A stretch of 64,000 nucleotides of DNA from Planctomycetota bacterium (GTDB lineage Bacteria; Planctomycetota; Phycisphaerae; UBA1845; UTPLA1), in contig JAATGM010000039.1 in assembly GCA_015654675.1 (NCBI GenBank), positions 1 to 64,000 of the forward strand. Reading direction: 5' to 3'. Shown piece by piece: positions 53,066 through 62,662 of the stretch. Position 1 is the stretch's first letter. Every line of letters begins with the position of its first letter. Position numbers and translations under genes: made by a program. The notes beneath the pieces were generated by a model, which was not told the origin of the DNA, did not search any database, and saw only the letters and a list, made by a program, of their open reading frames with translations.

Positions 53066-56000
53066 ATGTCTGCGGCGCCAGAGACTACCACGCAGGGGCG
53101 GCATTTTCTTACTTTCAATGCCCTTTACCAGAATGCTCGCCAGCCGATTCGAACGCTGGCGGGGCCGTTGATCGTCATCGGGCGAGCGCGCGGATGCGAT
53201 CTTGTGCTCGGCTCGGAAAGCGTTGCACCGGCGCACCTCGCGATCGTGTTTTCACGGGGCGAGTGTTTCGCGTGCGACCTTGGCGGGCCGCGCGGGACGA
53301 TTCTCAACGGACGGCCGATCCGGACGCAGCGGCTTACGGATGGGGATGAGCTGACGATTGGGAACTTCCGTTTCCGGGTGGATGGGATCACGTCGGAGTC
53401 GAGTTCGCGAGCGAGCGCGCCGCGTTTCACGCTGGCTGGCTCGGGGCCGATCGGGCGGTTGAATTGCTCGGACCCGGTGATGGTGATTGGATCGGACCTC
53501 GGGGCGGACCTGGTGATCCGGGATTCGGATGTGGCGGGCGTCCAGTGCTTGATTGCGTGGACGGACGGCGGGGTGATTGCGCGGGATGTGGGCGGCGGGG
53601 CAGGAATTTCGGTGAATGGGCGGCGGTCGTCGGCTGAGGTGTTGCGCGGCGGCGATGTGATCGTGATCGGTCCGCATGACATCCGGTTCGAGGCGGACAC
53701 GGCGAGCTTGCCGGGATCGGGCGAGGCGCCCACGGGCGACGAGCTGGCGAAGGCGTCGGATCGGGCGCTGGCGCCGGTTTCGCGGACGCGCGGAGCGGAT
53801 CTGACGCTGGAAGACTCGGAAGACGCGAACTGGGCGGACTCGCTGGCTGAGTCGGACGAGGTGAATCTCGACGTCGAGCTTTCGCGCGATTTGAAGGATT
53901 TGAAGCAGGCGCGATCGGAGATCGCTTCGGCGAAGGATGCGCTAGAGCGCGAGCGGACGCAGGCGCCGTCGTCGGCGGTTTTGTCGTCTGAGGCGCTGGG
54001 CGAAGTGATGATGTCCGGGGCGCGCGGGGCGACGCGTTCGTTGCCGCAGGCGATGCCGTCAGTCGACGTGGATGCACAACGACGGTCGATCGAGGCGGAG
54101 CGGTCGGTGCTGGCGGCGGAGCGAGCGAACCTCGATGCGCTGCGGGCCGAGATGGAATCGCAGCGGCGGCAACTGGCGACGTCGCGCGGGCAAGTGGACA
54201 CGCGGCAGGCGGAGTTTGACCGGCGGATCGCGGAGATGGAGGCCGAGGGGCGGCGGATCGCGAACGAGCGGCAGATGGTGGAAGCCGACAAGGCGGAGCT
54301 GCGGCGAATCAAGGGGGAGATCGAGTCGCAGGGACGCGATGTTTCGCAGATGCGCAGCCGGCATCGGCAAGAGCAGGCCGAGATGATTTCGCAGCGGTCG
54401 GCGCTGGCGAATGAAGTCGCGGTGTTGACGCAGCGGAAGGCGGATTTGCTGGGCGAAGCGGAGGACGCGGCGCAGCAACAGGCGCGGCAGGCGCAAGTTC
54501 GGAGCGAGCTGGAGGCGTCGCGTTCGGAACTGACGAAGGTGACGGCGGAGACCGAGGGGTTGCGGAAGCAGGCGCTGCGCGACCGTACGACGGTGAGCGA
54601 ATTGATGGCGACGCTGGAGCAGGCGCGGCGGGACCGCGACTCGCTGCGGGCGAAGCATTCGGAAGAGGGGCGGACCAAGCAGACGGAGTTGGAAACGCTT
54701 GGGCGCGAACTTACGGCGCGGACGCAGTCGCTTGAGAAGCGGTCGGACGAGATTGAACAACGCGAGCGGGCGGTCAATGAGAAGGTGGCGGCGCTGCGCG
54801 AGCGGGCCGGCAAAGAGCAGAAGAAGCTCGACGATCATGCGATGGCGCTGCGGACGACGCTGGATGAGCAGCGCGAACGGCAGCGGGTGCGGCAGCTTGA
54901 ACTTGAGGACCTCGGCAAGAAGCTGGAAGAGGCGCGGGCGCGGCTCACGCGGGATGTCGAGACGACACTGACGGACCGGACGCGGGAATTGGATGAGCGG
55001 GGCAAGTCGCTGGATGAGAAGACTACTTCTTTGCAGCGGCGGCTGGAGGAATTTGAGCGTCAGACCGGTGGCATGAAGGAGCGCGAGGACCGGCTGGAGC
55101 GCGCGGCGGCGGAATTACGACAGCGCGAGGCGACGCTTTCGTCGTTTGAGAGCGCGCTGCAGGAGCGGGACGCGCGGTTGCGGGAGTGGCAGGTCCGGGT
55201 CGAGCGGGACGAGTCGAAGCTGGACGACGTTCGGCGAGAGACCGAGACGACGCAGAAGGACGCAACGGCGATCAAGCAGCAGATCGACCGGCAGCGGGCC
55301 GAGATCGAGGCGCAACGCGAGTCGGTCGGGCCGGAGCTGGCGAAGGTGGAGGCGGCGCGGGCCGCACTGACAGATCGCGAGAAGCATCTGGAGGAGTTCA
55401 AGGGGGCGCTGGACCAGCGGGATGCGCAGCTTGCGGCGCGGCACAACGAATTAGAGACATGGGCGGCGCGGGTGGCGTCGCAGGAAGAGCGTCTGGACGA
55501 CGCGAACGCGCGACTCGAAGAGGCGCAGCGGCGCGAAGAGACGGTGACGGCGGGCGAGTCGGCGCTGGTGACGCGGCTGGCGCAGGCGGACCTGCGCGAC
55601 GCCGAACTGACGGCGTTGAAGGAGAAGCTCGATCGGCGGCGGGGCGAGCTGGAGTCGCGCGAGACGGCTCAGCGGGAGCGCGAGACGACGCTGGGGCGGG
55701 CCAAGGCAGACTTTGAGGTCGAGGTTGAGGCGTCTCGAAAGGCGCGCGAAGAGGCGCGTGTCATGCGGGACGAGGCGACGCGACGGGCGGGCGAGGCGGA
55801 TACGCGCGAGTCGGAGAACCAGCGACGGGCGACGCAGCTTGATGAGATGGAAGTCACGCTGCGGACGGAAGAAAACACACTCGAGGATGAGCGGACGGCG
55901 TTGCGACGCGAACAGACACAATTGAAGTCGGCGCATGAGGGGCTGACGGCCGATATGGCGACGCTGGCGCGGCAGCAGAACGAACTGGACCAGCGGGCGA

Positions 56001-59000
56001 GCGACTTCAGCCGGCAGCAGGAAGAGATTCAAACGCTGCGGACGACGCTGCACGATGAGCGAATCCGGCTGGAGGCGATGCGGGTCGGGCAGGCGGACGA
56101 GGGACGGCGCCTGGAGGCGTCGGCGGCGGAGATCGCGGGGCGGCGTGCCGAACTGGAGCAGCGCGCGGCCGAGATCGAGCAGCAGAATCACGAGCTGGCG
56201 AACGCGGGCAACGAACTGACGGCGCGGCGGCAGGCGGCGCGGGCCGAGGACGACGCGCTGGCGTCGAAGCGGGCCGCGATCGACGCGCGGCAAGCGGAGC
56301 TGGATGACCGGGGGCGGGCCGTGCTTCGCGATGAGGCGGCGATCAACCACGTTCGGGCGCAGCTTGACGAGGAGAAGTCGGTGCTGGCTTCGCTGCGGGA
56401 GCAGACGGAGTCGGATCGGCGGCTGGTCGAGCAGACGCGGCTCACTTACGCGGCGGGCCTCTCGCAACTCGAGGCGCGGCAGCGCGAGCATGGAGATCGC
56501 GAGGCACAGTCTGCGGAACAGGCGCGGCAGGCGGCGGCGCTGCAGCAACGGATGGAAGCGGAGCTGGATCGATTGCAGCAGGAGCGCGAGCAGCTTCTGG
56601 GTCTGCGGCAGTCGGACGCGGCTGAGGGCGACCGGTTGAAGGTGCTTTCGGGCCAGCTTGAGACGCAGCGACTGGAGATGAAGCGGCAGGAGGATGCGCT
56701 GATCGCCCACGAGCGGGCGTTGCAAGCGCGGACGGACCAGTTGGCGCAGATCGAAGTGCACCTGCAGAGCCGGATGCGCGAATTGGAAGAGCGATCGACC
56801 GGTGCGGCGCGGGATCGCGAGGACGTGGAACGCGAACGGATCGTCGTTCGGCGCGACATCGAGCAGGAAAAGGCCTCGGTGGCGGAGGCACGGGCGGCGA
56901 TCGAGCAGGAGCTGCGATCGGCGCGGGCGCGCGACGCGGCTGAGCTTGCGGCGGCGCGGGAGGAGTTTTCGCGACGCAAGGCGGATCTGGAGCGCGAGTA
57001 CGCGGAGAAGCGATCGCTGATCGAGGCGTCGGTGCGGCAGAAGATCGCGGGGGAACACGAAGTACGCGGGACGCAGGAAATGCGTCGGGCGCAGGAGACG
57101 CTGGCGAACGCGGAGGCGCGGCTGGCGAGCGTGGACCAGGATATCGCGGAGCGGCTGCGGCAGTTCGAGGTTGAAATGCAGCGGCGGCGGAATGATATGG
57201 AGCAGGATTCAGCGGCGCGGCGCGCGGCGACCGAAGACGCGCTGGCCGAGAAGCAGCGGGAAATTGACGAGCTGGTGGACGAGTTGCGACGGCGGCAGTC
57301 GGCGCTGGCTTCAGAAGAGGCGGCCATCGCCTCGCAGGCCGACGAGCTGAGCGCGGAGAGCGCGGCGGCCGAGCGGCGGATGCTGCGGGCGACGGAAATC
57401 GAACATAGCGCAGAACAGCGGATGCGGGTGGTGGAGACCCGGCAGAGCGAGCTGGCGGCATTCGAGGATGAGATTCGCACTCGACGGACGGCCGAGCTGC
57501 CGAAGCCGGCGGAAGCGGTGCGCGAATCGGAGCCGGACGAGCAGCCAGTCGTAGCTGAAGGGCCGGATGAGCCGGGCGAAGTTAATACGGATGGATCGGG
57601 CGAACTGGCGGTGTTGCTCGGGGATGACACGCCCTTTGCTACGCCGAAACGGTCGTGGGGCCGAGCGGCGGTTCTGACGGGAGTGTTTGCGGGGCTGGCG
57701 GCGATCGGAGCGTGGTACGTACTTCCGACGCCGAGCGGAACCGGAACGCTGAAGCTCGCAAGCGGCGATGCACGGAACGAATTGCTGCGGCAGGTGACGG
57801 ATGCAGATTTCTGGTCGCGAATTTCGACTGCGTCCGGAACCGATCTGATCGCGGCCGTGAATGCCCGGCAACTTACTGTGGTGCCGGAATCGAAGGAGTC
57901 GGTGCGGATTGAGGCCAACTCGCAGGCCATGGCCGACCTGGCGGGTCGGACGATTGCGGCAGACCTTTCGGCGGCGCCGGCGGCGAGCGAGATTCCCGGG
58001 AAGCGCGACCTGGAGCAGGTGCGGAGCGAACGGGCCGCTAAAGCGACAGAGTTGCAGTCGGCAGAGCAAAAGCTTGCGGCACTCTCCGCAGCGGTTTCGA
58101 ACGAAGGCATTGCGAAGAAGATCGCCGACGCGGAACGCATCCGTGAGACGCGGCGCGAGGCCGTGGTGAAGGCAGAGCAGACGGAACAAGGCACCAGCGC
58201 CCGACTGGCGGCGGCCGAGAAGGCCGAGGATTCGAACCGGGAATCGACGCCGGACGATCTGGCGGCGGCCCTGGCCAGCGATCCGTCTTACGGCGAGGCG
58301 AGGCGGGACTGTATTTCGAAGGCGCGCGGGCTGCGAGATGAACTGATTCGAGTGGCCGGCGAGGGGCAGCAGTCGTTTGGATATATGGCGTCTTCGATGG
58401 AGGACTTCCGCAAGGCATCGGAAGCGCAGAAGGCGCAGACAGCCGATGCATCGATCCGAACCACGCTGGTAGAGCTCGAAGGGGCGGCGGACCTGACGGG
58501 CGGACGCTGCATCGAGCTGCAAAAGCAGTGGGACGAACTGTTCACGCCGATCCGCGGGTGGCAGGACGGCAGCGACGCGACGGCGCTGACTTCATCAGTT
58601 GAGAAGGCGTCAGTCTGGATGCTGACATCAGAGCGCGAATTGGCGCAATTGATGGAGGGACTGGGCAAGCGGGTCGACGCGATCACGGCGAACGGATCGG
58701 ACATGGCGGCGCGGCGCGTCATTGAGAGCGGATTGCATAAGCGGCGGCGAGCGTACGAGGAGACCTATCGGCAGCTTCGCAACGCAATCGCGCAGGTGCT
58801 GGCGAAGGAGAACTTCAAGGTTCACGCGCTGAGCGAGGCGATCTCGGATCTGACGCGGCGTGCCGAACGGCGCAAGGCGGCAATCGAGAAGGTCGTGAAG
58901 GCCGAGACGAAACACGGCATGGGTGAGGCACGGCGAAAGACGCTCTCGGCTTTGAGCAAGGATCAGGCCGAGGCGAAGGATCGGCACAATCGGGCCGTCA

Positions 59001-59350
59001 AGGAATTGATGGCCGCGGATGAGGAATTGGCGATGCTGAAGCAGGCGTCCGAGCGGGCATCGCGACGGCGCGATGACCTGACGGCGCAGCACGTCGCAGT
59101 CGGCGATCTGAAAGAAGAGATCAAGCGGCTTGACGCGCGGATCTCGGAGGCGGATTCGGCGGAAACGCCGGCGGCATCGCCCAGCCCGCAGGCCGAGTAC
59201 CAGGCGGCGTCTTCAGCGGGTTTCCTGAGCGGTGGTCCCACCTACGTGCGGCCGTTGATGTCCGGAATTCTGGCCGGACTGTTCTTTGCACTCATGCATC
59301 GGATGTTCAAGGGCGGCCGGCGGCGTGCGGCGGTCGAATCGGCGAGCTGA
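53066..59350 (+). CDS. Giant membrane protein with two degenerate FHA domains, very long coiled coil and two membrane segments
   Basis: 2094 residues. FHA-like domains at about 30-108 (IGRARGCDLVL) and 128-210 (IGSDLGADLVI); both keep the NG turn (N81, N184) but lack the phosphothreonine-binding Ser (A54, A157), and the second also lacks Arg (S143) and His (Q160). About 270-1475 is an almost unbroken Arg/Glu/Gln/Ala coiled coil. TM1 is at about 1530-1550 (AAVLTGVFAGLAAIGAWYVL), TM2 at about 2060-2080 (MSGILAGLFFALMHRMF), with a roughly 500-residue helical loop between them. This TM-coil-TM layout recalls Wzz/GumC chain-length proteins. A GT4 gene follows 42 bases later. Family unknown; a scaffold or envelope-organising role is inference. 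Confidence 0.85.
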   Translation: MSAAPETTTQGRHFLTFNALYQNARQPIRTLAGPLIVIGRARGCDLVLGSESVAPAHLAIVFSRGECFACDLGGPRGTILNGRPIRTQRLTDGDELTIGNFRFRVDGITSESSSRASAPRFTLAGSGPIGRLNCSDPVMVIGSDLGADLVIRDSDVAGVQCLIAWTDGGVIARDVGGGAGISVNGRRSSAEVLRGGDVIVIGPHDIRFEADTASLPGSGEAPTGDELAKASDRALAPVSRTRGADLTLEDSEDANWADSLAESDEVNLDVELSRDLKDLKQARSEIASAKDALERERTQAPSSAVLSSEALGEVMMSGARGATRSLPQAMPSVDVDAQRRSIEAERSVLAAERANLDALRAEMESQRRQLATSRGQVDTRQAEFDRRIAEMEAEGRRIANERQMVEADKAELRRIKGEIESQGRDVSQMRSRHRQEQAEMISQRSALANEVAVLTQRKADLLGEAEDAAQQQARQAQVRSELEASRSELTKVTAETEGLRKQALRDRTTVSELMATLEQARRDRDSLRAKHSEEGRTKQTELETLGRELTARTQSLEKRSDEIEQRERAVNEKVAALRERAGKEQKKLDDHAMALRTTLDEQRERQRVRQLELEDLGKKLEEARARLTRDVETTLTDRTRELDERGKSLDEKTTSLQRRLEEFERQTGGMKEREDRLERAAAELRQREATLSSFESALQERDARLREWQVRVERDESKLDDVRRETETTQKDATAIKQQIDRQRAEIEAQRESVGPELAKVEAARAALTDREKHLEEFKGALDQRDAQLAARHNELETWAARVASQEERLDDANARLEEAQRREETVTAGESALVTRLAQADLRDAELTALKEKLDRRRGELESRETAQRERETTLGRAKADFEVEVEASRKAREEARVMRDEATRRAGEADTRESENQRRATQLDEMEVTLRTEENTLEDERTALRREQTQLKSAHEGLTADMATLARQQNELDQRASDFSRQQEEIQTLRTTLHDERIRLEAMRVGQADEGRRLEASAAEIAGRRAELEQRAAEIEQQNHELANAGNELTARRQAARAEDDALASKRAAIDARQAELDDRGRAVLRDEAAINHVRAQLDEEKSVLASLREQTESDRRLVEQTRLTYAAGLSQLEARQREHGDREAQSAEQARQAAALQQRMEAELDRLQQEREQLLGLRQSDAAEGDRLKVLSGQLETQRLEMKRQEDALIAHERALQARTDQLAQIEVHLQSRMRELEERSTGAARDREDVERERIVVRRDIEQEKASVAEARAAIEQELRSARARDAAELAAAREEFSRRKADLEREYAEKRSLIEASVRQKIAGEHEVRGTQEMRRAQETLANAEARLASVDQDIAERLRQFEVEMQRRRNDMEQDSAARRAATEDALAEKQREIDELVDELRRRQSALASEEAAIASQADELSAESAAAERRMLRATEIEHSAEQRMRVVETRQSELAAFEDEIRTRRTAELPKPAEAVRESEPDEQPVVAEGPDEPGEVNTDGSGELAVLLGDDTPFATPKRSWGRAAVLTGVFAGLAAIGAWYVLPTPSGTGTLKLASGDARNELLRQVTDADFWSRISTASGTDLIAAVNARQLTVVPESKESVRIEANSQAMADLAGRTIAADLSAAPAASEIPGKRDLEQVRSERAAKATELQSAEQKLAALSAAVSNEGIAKKIADAERIRETRREAVVKAEQTEQGTSARLAAAEKAEDSNRESTPDDLAAALASDPSYGEARRDCISKARGLRDELIRVAGEGQQSFGYMASSMEDFRKASEAQKAQTADASIRTTLVELEGAADLTGGRCIELQKQWDELFTPIRGWQDGSDATALTSSVEKASVWMLTSERELAQLMEGLGKRVDAITANGSDMAARRVIESGLHKRRRAYEETYRQLRNAIAQVLAKENFKVHALSEAISDLTRRAERRKAAIEKVVKAETKHGMGEARRKTLSALSKDQAEAKDRHNRAVKELMAADEELAMLKQASERASRRRDDLTAQHVAVGDLKEEIKRLDARISEADSAETPAASPSPQAEYQAASSAGFLSGGPTYVRPLMSGILAGLFFALMHRMFKGGRRRAAVESAS

Positions 59351-60676: not shown

Positions 60677-61150
60677 ATGATCTTCTTCAATGGCGCACAC
60701 GATCACACGATCGACGCAAAGAACCGACTGGCGATACCGTCGGAGTTTCGGGATCGGATCGATCCGACGCGTGACGGGAAAAAATTCTACATCGTTCCAG
60801 GATCGCCGCGGACTCGGCTCTGGATCTATACGCAGATCTACTTCGAGACGGTCGCGAGCGGGCTTGGCTCGGACCTGATTCGGGATTCGAACCTGCTCGC
60901 CTATGAGCAGAAGACATTTCCGCGGGTAGCGGACGCAGAACCGGACTCACAGGGAAGGATCATCATTCCGGAGTGGATGTTGCGGAAGACCGGCCTGGGG
61001 CGCGAGGTCGTGGTCTGCGGAGTGCGGGATCACATGGAAGTGCGACGCCGCGACGAGTGGGAGAAGGAGCTGGAAGAAGAGTGGGGCGTGGACCCCGAGC
61101 TGGCCTTCCGGGCGGGCAAAGCCGTCGAAGGAAGCCAGCGAGACAGGTAG
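60677..61150 (+). CDS. mraZ: Transcriptional regulator / division-cluster protein MraZ
   Basis: 157 residues from ATG 60677. Two SpoVT/AbrB-like half-barrels are visible: GAHDHTIDAKNRLAIPSEFR (about 6-30) and VADAEPDSQGRIIIPEWMLR (about 85-110), with VVVCGVRDHMEVRRRDEWEK as the second domain end. MraZ oligomers bind TGGGN repeats and control the dcw operon. The ORF opens at 60650, but the conserved N-terminus begins with MIFFNGAHDHT. It is followed by rsmH as usual, but here with a 582-base gap instead of a few bases. Confidence 0.94.
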   Translation: MIFFNGAHDHTIDAKNRLAIPSEFRDRIDPTRDGKKFYIVPGSPRTRLWIYTQIYFETVASGLGSDLIRDSNLLAYEQKTFPRVADAEPDSQGRIIIPEWMLRKTGLGREVVVCGVRDHMEVRRRDEWEKELEEEWGVDPELAFRAGKAVEGSQRDR

Positions 61151-61571
61151 GGCGGCCAGGATGGCCCCCGGTTTTGGCGAAGGTGCGGTTCGGGCGGAGC
61201 CCGGCGGCCAAGTAACGACGAGGCAGCGAACGGAGTCGAGTCTGCTCGGCGGCGCGGTTGTCGGTTGTCCGACGTGACTATCAGTAACGCGCGGTGGGGA
61301 GACAGGAGGTCGTCGGCGAATCAGGGTTCGGACTGGTGACGCAGTCCGACGTGGGATCGACGCGGTTCCCGCCTGACTCGCCCTTCCATCGCCGTCTTCC
61401 GCCAGCACCGGAGTTCCTGACTTCTCCGGAGCCGGCCGGGAACGCATCGCTCAGACGCGGACGATGCGTTCCCCGAACTTAGGGTTGGTCGCGACTGGGC
61501 GACCCATCAGAATGACCGTGTTGTGGTGGCCTTCGGCTGTCAAGGATGATGGCCGGGGCCACCGGTTTTTT
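61151..61571 (+). ncRNA. Candidate structured RNA between mraZ and rsmH
   Basis: No supportable protein. Three successive hairpins mark the 3' part: GGGAACGCATCG/CGATGCGTTCCC (61438-61473, 12-bp perfect), GGTCGC/GCGACC (61487-61504) and GGTGGCC/GGCCACC (61525-61563) followed by a T6 run. CGGACT-GGTGACGC-AGTCCG (61329-61348) is a fourth. It lacks the conserved RNase P GAGGAAAGTCC and other known RNA signatures I can recall. Length about 420 bases if it starts near the mraZ stop. It could be a stand-alone RNA or an mraZ-rsmH leader. Confidence 0.5.
61525..61571 (+). terminator. Intrinsic terminator ending the mraZ-rsmH interval RNA
   Basis: GGTGGCC (61525-61531) and GGCCACC (61557-61563) pair across a 25-base loop and are followed by GG and TTTTTT (61566-61571). 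It would stop transcription before rsmH and separates mraZ from the rest of the cluster. Confidence 0.65.
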
Positions 61572-61732: not shown

Positions 61733-62662
61733 GTGCCGGGCGGAATTGATGAGCACGTCCCAGTTCTGGTGGATGAGGTTTTGGCGGCCATCGTGCCGGT
61801 TGCGAAGACGCTCATCGTCGATTGCACCGTCGGGCTTGGGGGACACTCGCGGGCGCTATTAGAGGCGACACCCGCGAGTGTGAATCTGATCGGATTAGAT
61901 GCAGATGCGGGGAATTTGGAGCGGGCGGCGGAGAATCTGCGGCCATTTGGGGCGCGGGTGCAGCTTAGACTCGGGAATTTCACCAGCGTCGCCAGTATTG
62001 TCGGAAGTGGCGCGGCGGATGCCCTGCTGGCGGATTTGGGGGTGAGCAGCAACCAGATTTCGGACCCACGTCGCGGACTGAGCTTCGAGGTGGATGGTCC
62101 GCTGGACATGCGACTGGATCAGCGATCGGGTCCGACGGCGGCTGACCTTGTCAATGATTTGGACGAGGAAGCGCTGGCAAATCTACTTTACGTGCAGAGC
62201 CAGGAACGCAGCAGCCGAAGAATTGCGAAGCGGATCTGTGCTGCGCGGCGCATGGGCCGGCTGAACAGCACTGTTTTGCTTGCGCGGATCGTGGCCGAGG
62301 CAGTCGGCCCGCGTCCTTTCGGACGGGCCGGACGAATCCATCCCGCGACGCGGACGTTTATGGCGTTGCGAATGGCGGTCAACCGAGAAGGCGAGTCGCT
62401 GGCAGCATTGCTGCGGCAGGTCCCGATGGTTTTGAGAGCCGGCGGTCGTGCCGCGATCATCAGCTTTCACAGCGGCGAGGACCGGCTGGTGAAGGAAGAA
62501 TTTCGGATGCTTTCACGCGCGGGGCAATTTGGACTGGTGACCCGCAAGCCGATCTCCGCGAGCGCGGAGGAAGCGGCGCGAAACGCGCGCAGCCGATCGG
62601 CGAAGCTGCGCGTGGCAGAGAAACTGGAAGAACAACTGTCCGATGGGAACGCAGTCGAGTAA
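61733..62662 (+). CDS. rsmH: 16S rRNA m4C1402 N4-methyltransferase RsmH (MraW)
   Basis: 309 residues from GTG 61733 with GAGG just upstream; ATG 61731 is out of frame. Motifs: HVPVLVDEVLAAI (MraW start), VDCTVGLGGHSRALLEATP (SAM site), LADLGVSSNQISDPRRGLSF and DGPLDMRLDQRSGPTA, RRIAKRICAARRMGRLNSTV, HPATRTFMALRMAVNRE and IISFHSGEDRLVKEEF. It methylates C1402 in the 30S P site. The C-terminal KPISASAEEAARNARSRSAKL segment is complete. It lies between the structured interval and a LysM membrane protein that starts 27 bases later. Confidence 0.95.
   Translation: MPGGIDEHVPVLVDEVLAAIVPVAKTLIVDCTVGLGGHSRALLEATPASVNLIGLDADAGNLERAAENLRPFGARVQLRLGNFTSVASIVGSGAADALLADLGVSSNQISDPRRGLSFEVDGPLDMRLDQRSGPTAADLVNDLDEEALANLLYVQSQERSSRRIAKRICAARRMGRLNSTVLLARIVAEAVGPRPFGRAGRIHPATRTFMALRMAVNREGESLAALLRQVPMVLRAGGRAAIISFHSGEDRLVKEEFRMLSRAGQFGLVTRKPISASAEEAARNARSRSAKLRVAEKLEEQLSDGNAVE

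Follow-up and report, generated by a model that had tools for sequence, protein, structure and literature searches.

Why do mraZ and rsmH lie so far apart in this planctomycete, and what does the space between them encode? In the window, by which we mean the whole 64,000-nt stretch of DNA that was analysed, mraZ ends at position 61150 and the GTG start codon of rsmH follows at 61733. This leaves a gap of exactly 582 nt, the separation that the initial annotation had reported, and both proteins were identified by Pfam:

60680-61150, + strand: mraZ (Pfam MraZ, 2.3e-18), immediately upstream of the putative RNA and probably on the same transcript
61733-62662, + strand: rsmH (Pfam Methyltransf_5, 2.9e-85), starting 161 nt past the terminator

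The window also contains a 2094-codon reading frame (53066-59350), rich in coiled-coil-like sequence, that precedes the genes for a glycosyltransferase and mraZ.

The mraZ-rsmH gap in related genomes

A DNA similarity search of the gap against 100 relatives returned no match except the gap itself. As DNA similarity was uninformative, the loci were compared through gene order instead. Relatives that carry a name belong to Phycisphaerae or other Planctomycetota. mraZ was detected in 58 of 61 genomes. Of the 57 relatives among these, G010 and G024 had fragments at contig ends and were left out, and the mraZ regions of the other 55 were compared. rsmH lies 305-726 nt downstream of mraZ in 42 of these 55 usable loci and was not found in 13. 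Eleven of these are family members, in which the search extended over 4.4-4.8 kb, and in the other two the contig stops early. The two genes overlap or abut in most non-planctomycete loci from the same search. The expectation that mraZ and rsmH are normally adjacent thus holds for most loci outside the planctomycetes but not here, where a long gap is usual.

Hairpins and terminator downstream of mraZ

Repeat and terminator scans of the gap detected the following structures, confirming the T6 terminator before rsmH and the hairpins, one of them a perfect 12-bp stem, that had been read from the sequence:

61151-61571, + strand: putative RNA with four A(N)GGA-loop hairpins; its 5' end is undetermined, possibly lying inside mraZ or being that of an mraZ 3' UTR
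61328-61335 / 61342-61349: 8-bp inverted repeat
61401-61413 / 61424-61436: 13-nt inverted repeat (85%)
61438-61473 (arms 61438-61449 / 61462-61473), + strand: perfect 12-bp hairpin, its loop with GGA but not A(N)GGA
61525-61571, + strand: intrinsic terminator, stem GGUGGCC/GGCCACC (61525-61531 / 61557-61563), U6 tail at 61566-61571

The scan called the terminator on the + strand, and its terminator-like matches on the - strand are located inside mraZ. Folding of 61151-61571 gave only modest support on the + strand, with 2 of 100 shuffles equally stable and a z of -2.26. The - strand folds more stably (z -3.98), so folding energy cannot decide the strand. The - strand was considered as the RNA strand for this greater stability and rejected, having zero A(N)GGA sites.

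CsrA-type sites in the window

Loops of the A(N)GGA type, the signature that CsrA recognises, are likely the key to the function of this RNA. A site was defined as a loop ANGGAN or AGGAN with at least three pairs, a definition set after the relatives' sequences had been read. Four such sites are found in the window RNA (loops in square brackets):

61154-61166 (loop at 61158), + strand: site 1, hairpin GGCC[AGGAU]GGCC
61227-61238 (loop at 61230), + strand: site 2, hairpin CGA[ACGGAG]UCG, with just 3 bp
61301-61311 (loop at 61304), + strand: site 3, hairpin GAC[AGGAG]GUC, with just 3 bp
61538-61551 (loop at 61542), + strand: site 4, UGUC[AAGGAU]GAUG, the tip of the terminator

The shuffle mean was 0.24, none of 500 shuffles reached four sites and the other strand had none. 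At four or more pairs two sites remain, a count reached by 0.6% of shuffles. The same measure gave 8 sites for E. coli CsrB and 3 for CsrC, and 0 each for the RNase P RNA and tmRNA of this genome. Positions 61151-61571 form the densest 421-nt stretch for sites within the 64-kb window, with a fifth site immediately upstream, inside mraZ. No other stretch with four sites was found on either strand of 800 kb of the same genome (about a sixth), and a search for a second copy of the interval elsewhere in the genome gave nothing above chance. Binding at site 4 may be weak, because its terminator stem is long and SELEX-derived CsrA sites mostly have four or fewer contiguous pairs (PMC7652899).

A(N)GGA hairpins across relatives

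Reading through the relatives' gaps revealed short hairpins, with CAAGGATG and CACGGATG among their loops. A first, looser hairpin definition yielded 120 hairpins against 42 in shuffled sequences and 10 on the other strand; it was replaced by stricter ones because of its raised base rate on coding strands. With sites as defined above, 56 mraZ loci contained 126 against 15 after shuffling and 5 on the opposite strand, and only 34 of the loci were individually significant at 0.05. A further 33 Phycisphaerae loci contained 81 sites (7.1 shuffled, 5 on the opposite strand), with at least two in 26 of them. Of the 79 named loci in this second survey, L182 (cut at mraZ) was excluded and nine duplicates were counted apart; three outgroup loci were too short. 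Coding segments of outgroups had 21 sites against 4.8 shuffled, but 16 on the other strand, so that shuffles understate counts in coding sequence.

The loop itself is specific. Among hexaloops A-N-XYZ-N on stems of at least four pairs in 43 gaps (~21 kb), GGA occurred 48 times, the next of the 64 trinucleotides 5 times and the median trinucleotide 0.5 times, with no GGA hexaloop on the other strand. GGA hexaloop hairpins reached 2.28 per kb in the gaps versus 0.31 in adjacent coding sequence, and the first loop letter was A in 48, C in 4, G in 2 and T in none. Flanking complementarity of at least 3 bp was present at 107 of 254 ANGGAN sites in the 56 loci; when 3' arms were swapped among sites, the mean fell to 21.4 with a maximum of 38 in 1000 rounds. 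Stems of four or more pairs surrounded 70 of the 254 ANGGAN sites versus 15 of 509 [CGT]NGGAN sites, and the closing pair was C-G in 49 of the 70. The flanking arms vary from genome to genome with complementarity retained. The hairpin grammar agrees with the CsrA SELEX consensus RUACARGGAUGU, described as having mostly a six-nt loop with AC and GU paired (PMC7652899).

The signature is not universal. No strict hexaloop site with at least 3 bp was found in 4 of the 56 loci, although three of these (L073, L078, L079) do show ANGGA at the tip of a terminator-like hairpin. An automatic terminator search of the 56 loci ranked an ANGGA hairpin first in 34 and another hairpin in 18, and returned none in four. 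Seven Phycisphaerae MAGs showed no such RNA behind mraZ, and six of the seven have csrA. Their mraZ-rsmH gaps (L136 2996-3205, L138, L139, L142, L144, L145, L149) hold a conserved frame of ~65-70 aa with the pattern ...PVEVLRQ.L.G...FSP..EAM...

Other recurrent sequences were observed in the gaps. A GCAGCGAGTGG(AAG) k-mer is present in about ten of the 43 (e.g. L085, L089, L068), early in some gaps and past the terminator in others. Eight loci of other Phycisphaerae (L118, L127, L129, L134, L140, L125, L143, L146) have a common string GCATC(A/G)GTGATCGG behind mraZ, outside the CsrA-type hairpins.

Conservation, covariation and known RNA families

In an alignment of the window with 15 family members, the only invariant columns were those of A and GGA in the terminator loop, plus three further G positions. 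The terminator-loop A-GGA (site 4) is unchanged in 16/16 family genomes, and nearly everything else varies. Besides the loops, the family has a conserved 5' domain and a CAACGCGTTG motif ahead of the terminator. A CAACGCGTTG-like palindrome, which might serve for pairing or dimer formation, stands directly before the terminator in L042-L044, L046, L047, L050, L051 and L053; the window has a diverged form of it (GACCGTGTTG) at ~61515-61523.

The full-length family alignment is weak in the middle (mean column identity 38%), and the covariance model was for this reason restricted to the 3' domain. It was built from 14 relatives, with the window and L052 (different terminator) excluded, and matched the window as follows:

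61495-61571, + strand: 3' domain, covariance model match of 25.7 bits (within the window E 8.7e-5, followed by a match at 0.23)

Over the whole genome this domain remained the top match (E 0.0067); the second match follows closely at 24.0 bits, so the model lacks sharpness. Two-sided changes occur at 8 of 11 pairs of the terminator hairpin, with a covariation score of 0.459 versus 0.162 in shuffled alignments and at most 0.149 with slid partners. Seven Phycisphaerales showed two-sided changes in 18 of 119 pairs.

At gathering score Rfam had no match in the window and none in the loci of 20 relatives. Below threshold (E 10) the best matches were on the - strand and chance-like, among them RsmW with 16.1 of 52 bits, also on the - strand. 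RNase P RNA and tmRNA, which the initial annotation had already doubted, had no Rfam match in the window and both genes were located elsewhere in the genome. The mraW motif (RF01746), from which the region had likewise been set apart, was not matched; it is named after mraW (rsmH) and listed for Actinomycetales (PMC2864571). The TwoAYGGAY motif resembles the window RNA in its two AYGGAY loops, going by its name, and had no Rfam match in the window; PMC2864571 lists it for human gut, gamma-Proteobacteria and Clostridiales. By the Rfam test, the putative RNA belongs to no described family.

The proposal of a structured RNA in the gap would have been refuted by a known Rfam family covering the interval or by a lack of compensatory changes in related genomes. 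No such family was found and compensatory changes are present, which supports it. Judged by comparison of sequences alone, the interval is an RNA conserved among Phycisphaerae (Planctomycetota).

Linkage to mraZ and independence from rsmH

In 11 of the 15 family members examined, RNA and terminator are kept behind mraZ although rsmH is absent from the next 4.4-4.8 kb; the contig of a twelfth member is too short to judge the presence of rsmH. These rsmH-less loci retain the 5' domain, and most also keep the CAACGCGTTG-like motif. In Phycisphaerales, too, both RNA and terminator are present at loci that lack rsmH over about 2.4 kb. As the RNA is retained behind mraZ without a nearby rsmH, it is not an rsmH leader. 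An rsmH leader or dcw attenuator would be expected to stay with rsmH when gene order changes, which is not the case in the 11 family genomes. Control of entry into the dcw genes and an independent RNA had both been suggested, and the evidence favours the latter.

The 5' domain begins at the mraZ stop codon in several family members, which leaves no room for an intergenic promoter; the RNA would have to come from the mraZ 3' UTR or from an internal start. We infer that it is probably one of these two, in the absence of expression data on transcription or processing. The systematic survey was limited to mraZ loci, so the association with mraZ partly reflects how the loci were chosen.

csrA and fliW in the same genomes

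CsrA (PF02599) was found in 59 and FliW (PF02623) in 57 of 61 genomes. CsrA of the window genome retains L4 and R44, two residues highlighted among the CsrA binding residues in a review (PMC7652899). fliW adjoins csrA in these genomes, and in the window genome a flagellin gene lies alongside (G000:C62:142170-144624; L212 2170-4624), a fliW-csrA-flagellin cluster in the arrangement of the FliW-CsrA-Hag switch. The window genome has five CsrA-domain matches (four above cut-off); two of these fall inside open frames, one 286 and one 335 codons long. In one 97%-complete genome (G015) the RNA is kept, yet neither csrA nor fliW was found. Csr sRNAs are placed in Gammaproteobacteria by two papers (PMC7652899, PMC4894983), the first of which also gives fliW as absent from that class. 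This 2020 review regards joint action of FliW and sRNAs in any species as still undetermined (PMC7652899).

A putative CsrA-sequestering RNA

Computation establishes that the RNA is conserved, on which strand it lies, that it has CsrA-type loops on compensating stems and a terminator, and that csrA and fliW are present. The explanation that we favour, with reasonable though not high confidence, is that the interval encodes a CsrA-sequestering RNA, CsrB/RsmZ-like in function and not a member of those families. Binding, transcription and sequestration are all inferred. Binding of CsrA to the RNA at all is judged likelier than sequestration, and there are no binding data. An RNA of ~420 nt would be read in the same direction as mraZ up to the intrinsic terminator. 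It would probably be either the 3' UTR of the mraZ mRNA or the product of a promoter within mraZ, and its amount would then track transcription of the division locus. Several CsrA copies would be bound through the small A(N)GGA-loop hairpins and drawn off their mRNA targets, as with CsrB/CsrC and RsmY/RsmZ.

CsrA could also act on this RNA only in cis. Bound chiefly at the terminator loop, it might control how much transcription continues past mraZ into rsmH and the dcw genes, which would agree with a terminator placed between the two genes, with its loop as an invariant CsrA-type site and with an rsmH kept adjacent in 42/55 relatives. RNA and terminator nevertheless persist in the 11 family genomes and the Phycisphaerales loci that lack a nearby rsmH, and all sites other than the one on the terminator would be superfluous; we regard such control as unlikely. 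Quite unlikely, in our estimate, is that CsrA on the mraZ 3' UTR merely tunes the stability of mraZ mRNA without any titration of CsrA. In its favour, the RNA lies directly behind mraZ in the examined loci, and several family members have no space there for an intergenic promoter, but so many sites are typical of sponges and exceed what a simple mRNA target requires; this does not exclude it.

Other readings dispense with CsrA. A structured RNA of another class, whose ANGGA loops serve a different protein or a ribosome-related role, could account for the conserved non-loop parts of the window family (5' domain and CAACGCGTTG motif), but the loop grammar of A, any nucleotide, GGA, six nt and a closing C-G fits CsrA, and we know of no other family that fits it; we consider this very unlikely. 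That the hairpins are dispersed REP-like palindromes with chance GGA loops appears hardly tenable. Palindromes of the form GCGAGAANGGATTCTCGC are indeed dispersed in the genome, with six exact copies and nine with at most one mismatch (reversed-pattern control 0), and similar ones occur in some relatives' gaps (L069). They are, however, closed by A-T, whereas 49 of 70 hairpins with stems of at least four pairs are closed by C-G on varied stems. The terminator site is moreover conserved in position in 16/16 family members, the interval has no second genome copy, and the arm swap suggests that the sites are not one repeat family with a conserved stem sequence. GCGAGAANGGATTCTCGC palindromes were seen at G000:C45 (L222, 19482-19572) and on G000:C60 and C62; their loop is also ANGGAT, and they are possibly CsrA sites themselves.

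Relation to known CsrA-binding RNAs

CsrB/CsrC and RsmX/Y/Z/W are CsrA/RsmA-sequestering sRNAs of Gammaproteobacteria. The putative sponge shares with them multiple A(N)GGA-loop hairpins, an intrinsic terminator and a genome with canonical CsrA. Its site count (4) is close to that of CsrC (3) and below that of CsrB (8) by our one measure. It differs in phylum, in its place behind mraZ, in a terminator loop that is itself a site and in the presence of FliW in the genome. Membership in the CsrB/Rsm Rfam families was checked by several A(N)GGA-loop hairpins, which the window RNA and its relatives have, by an intrinsic terminator, which the window RNA has, and by a covariance-model match, which was not obtained.

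An origin from a 3' UTR has a parallel in RsmU of Xanthomonas, an RsmA-sequestering sRNA cut from the mRNA 3' UTR of a protein gene (PMC7694677); host gene (comEA) and phylum are different. In Campylobacter, flaA mRNA has covarying ANGGA hairpins and can titrate CsrA in a FliW genome (PMC4894983); unlike those of the window RNA, its sites lie in the 5' UTR at the flagellin ribosome binding site. A literature search limited to open-licence PMC papers turned up no earlier description of an RNA of this kind from planctomycetes.

Implications for CsrA control in Phycisphaerae

CsrA-titrating sRNAs have been described for Gammaproteobacteria, and many other bacteria rely on FliW. What is new here is a CsrA-sponge-like RNA in a new place, behind mraZ, and in a new phylum, the Planctomycetota. 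With fliW beside csrA and a conserved RNA of this kind in the same genomes, the question of joint action of FliW and sRNAs becomes directly testable, and the linkage to mraZ suggests a tie between cell division and CsrA control. Tentatively, and with slightly more doubt than conviction, we propose that Phycisphaerae may control CsrA by FliW and an mraZ-locus sponge RNA at once, which would couple titration of CsrA to transcription of division genes through a sponge of independent, non-gammaproteobacterial origin.
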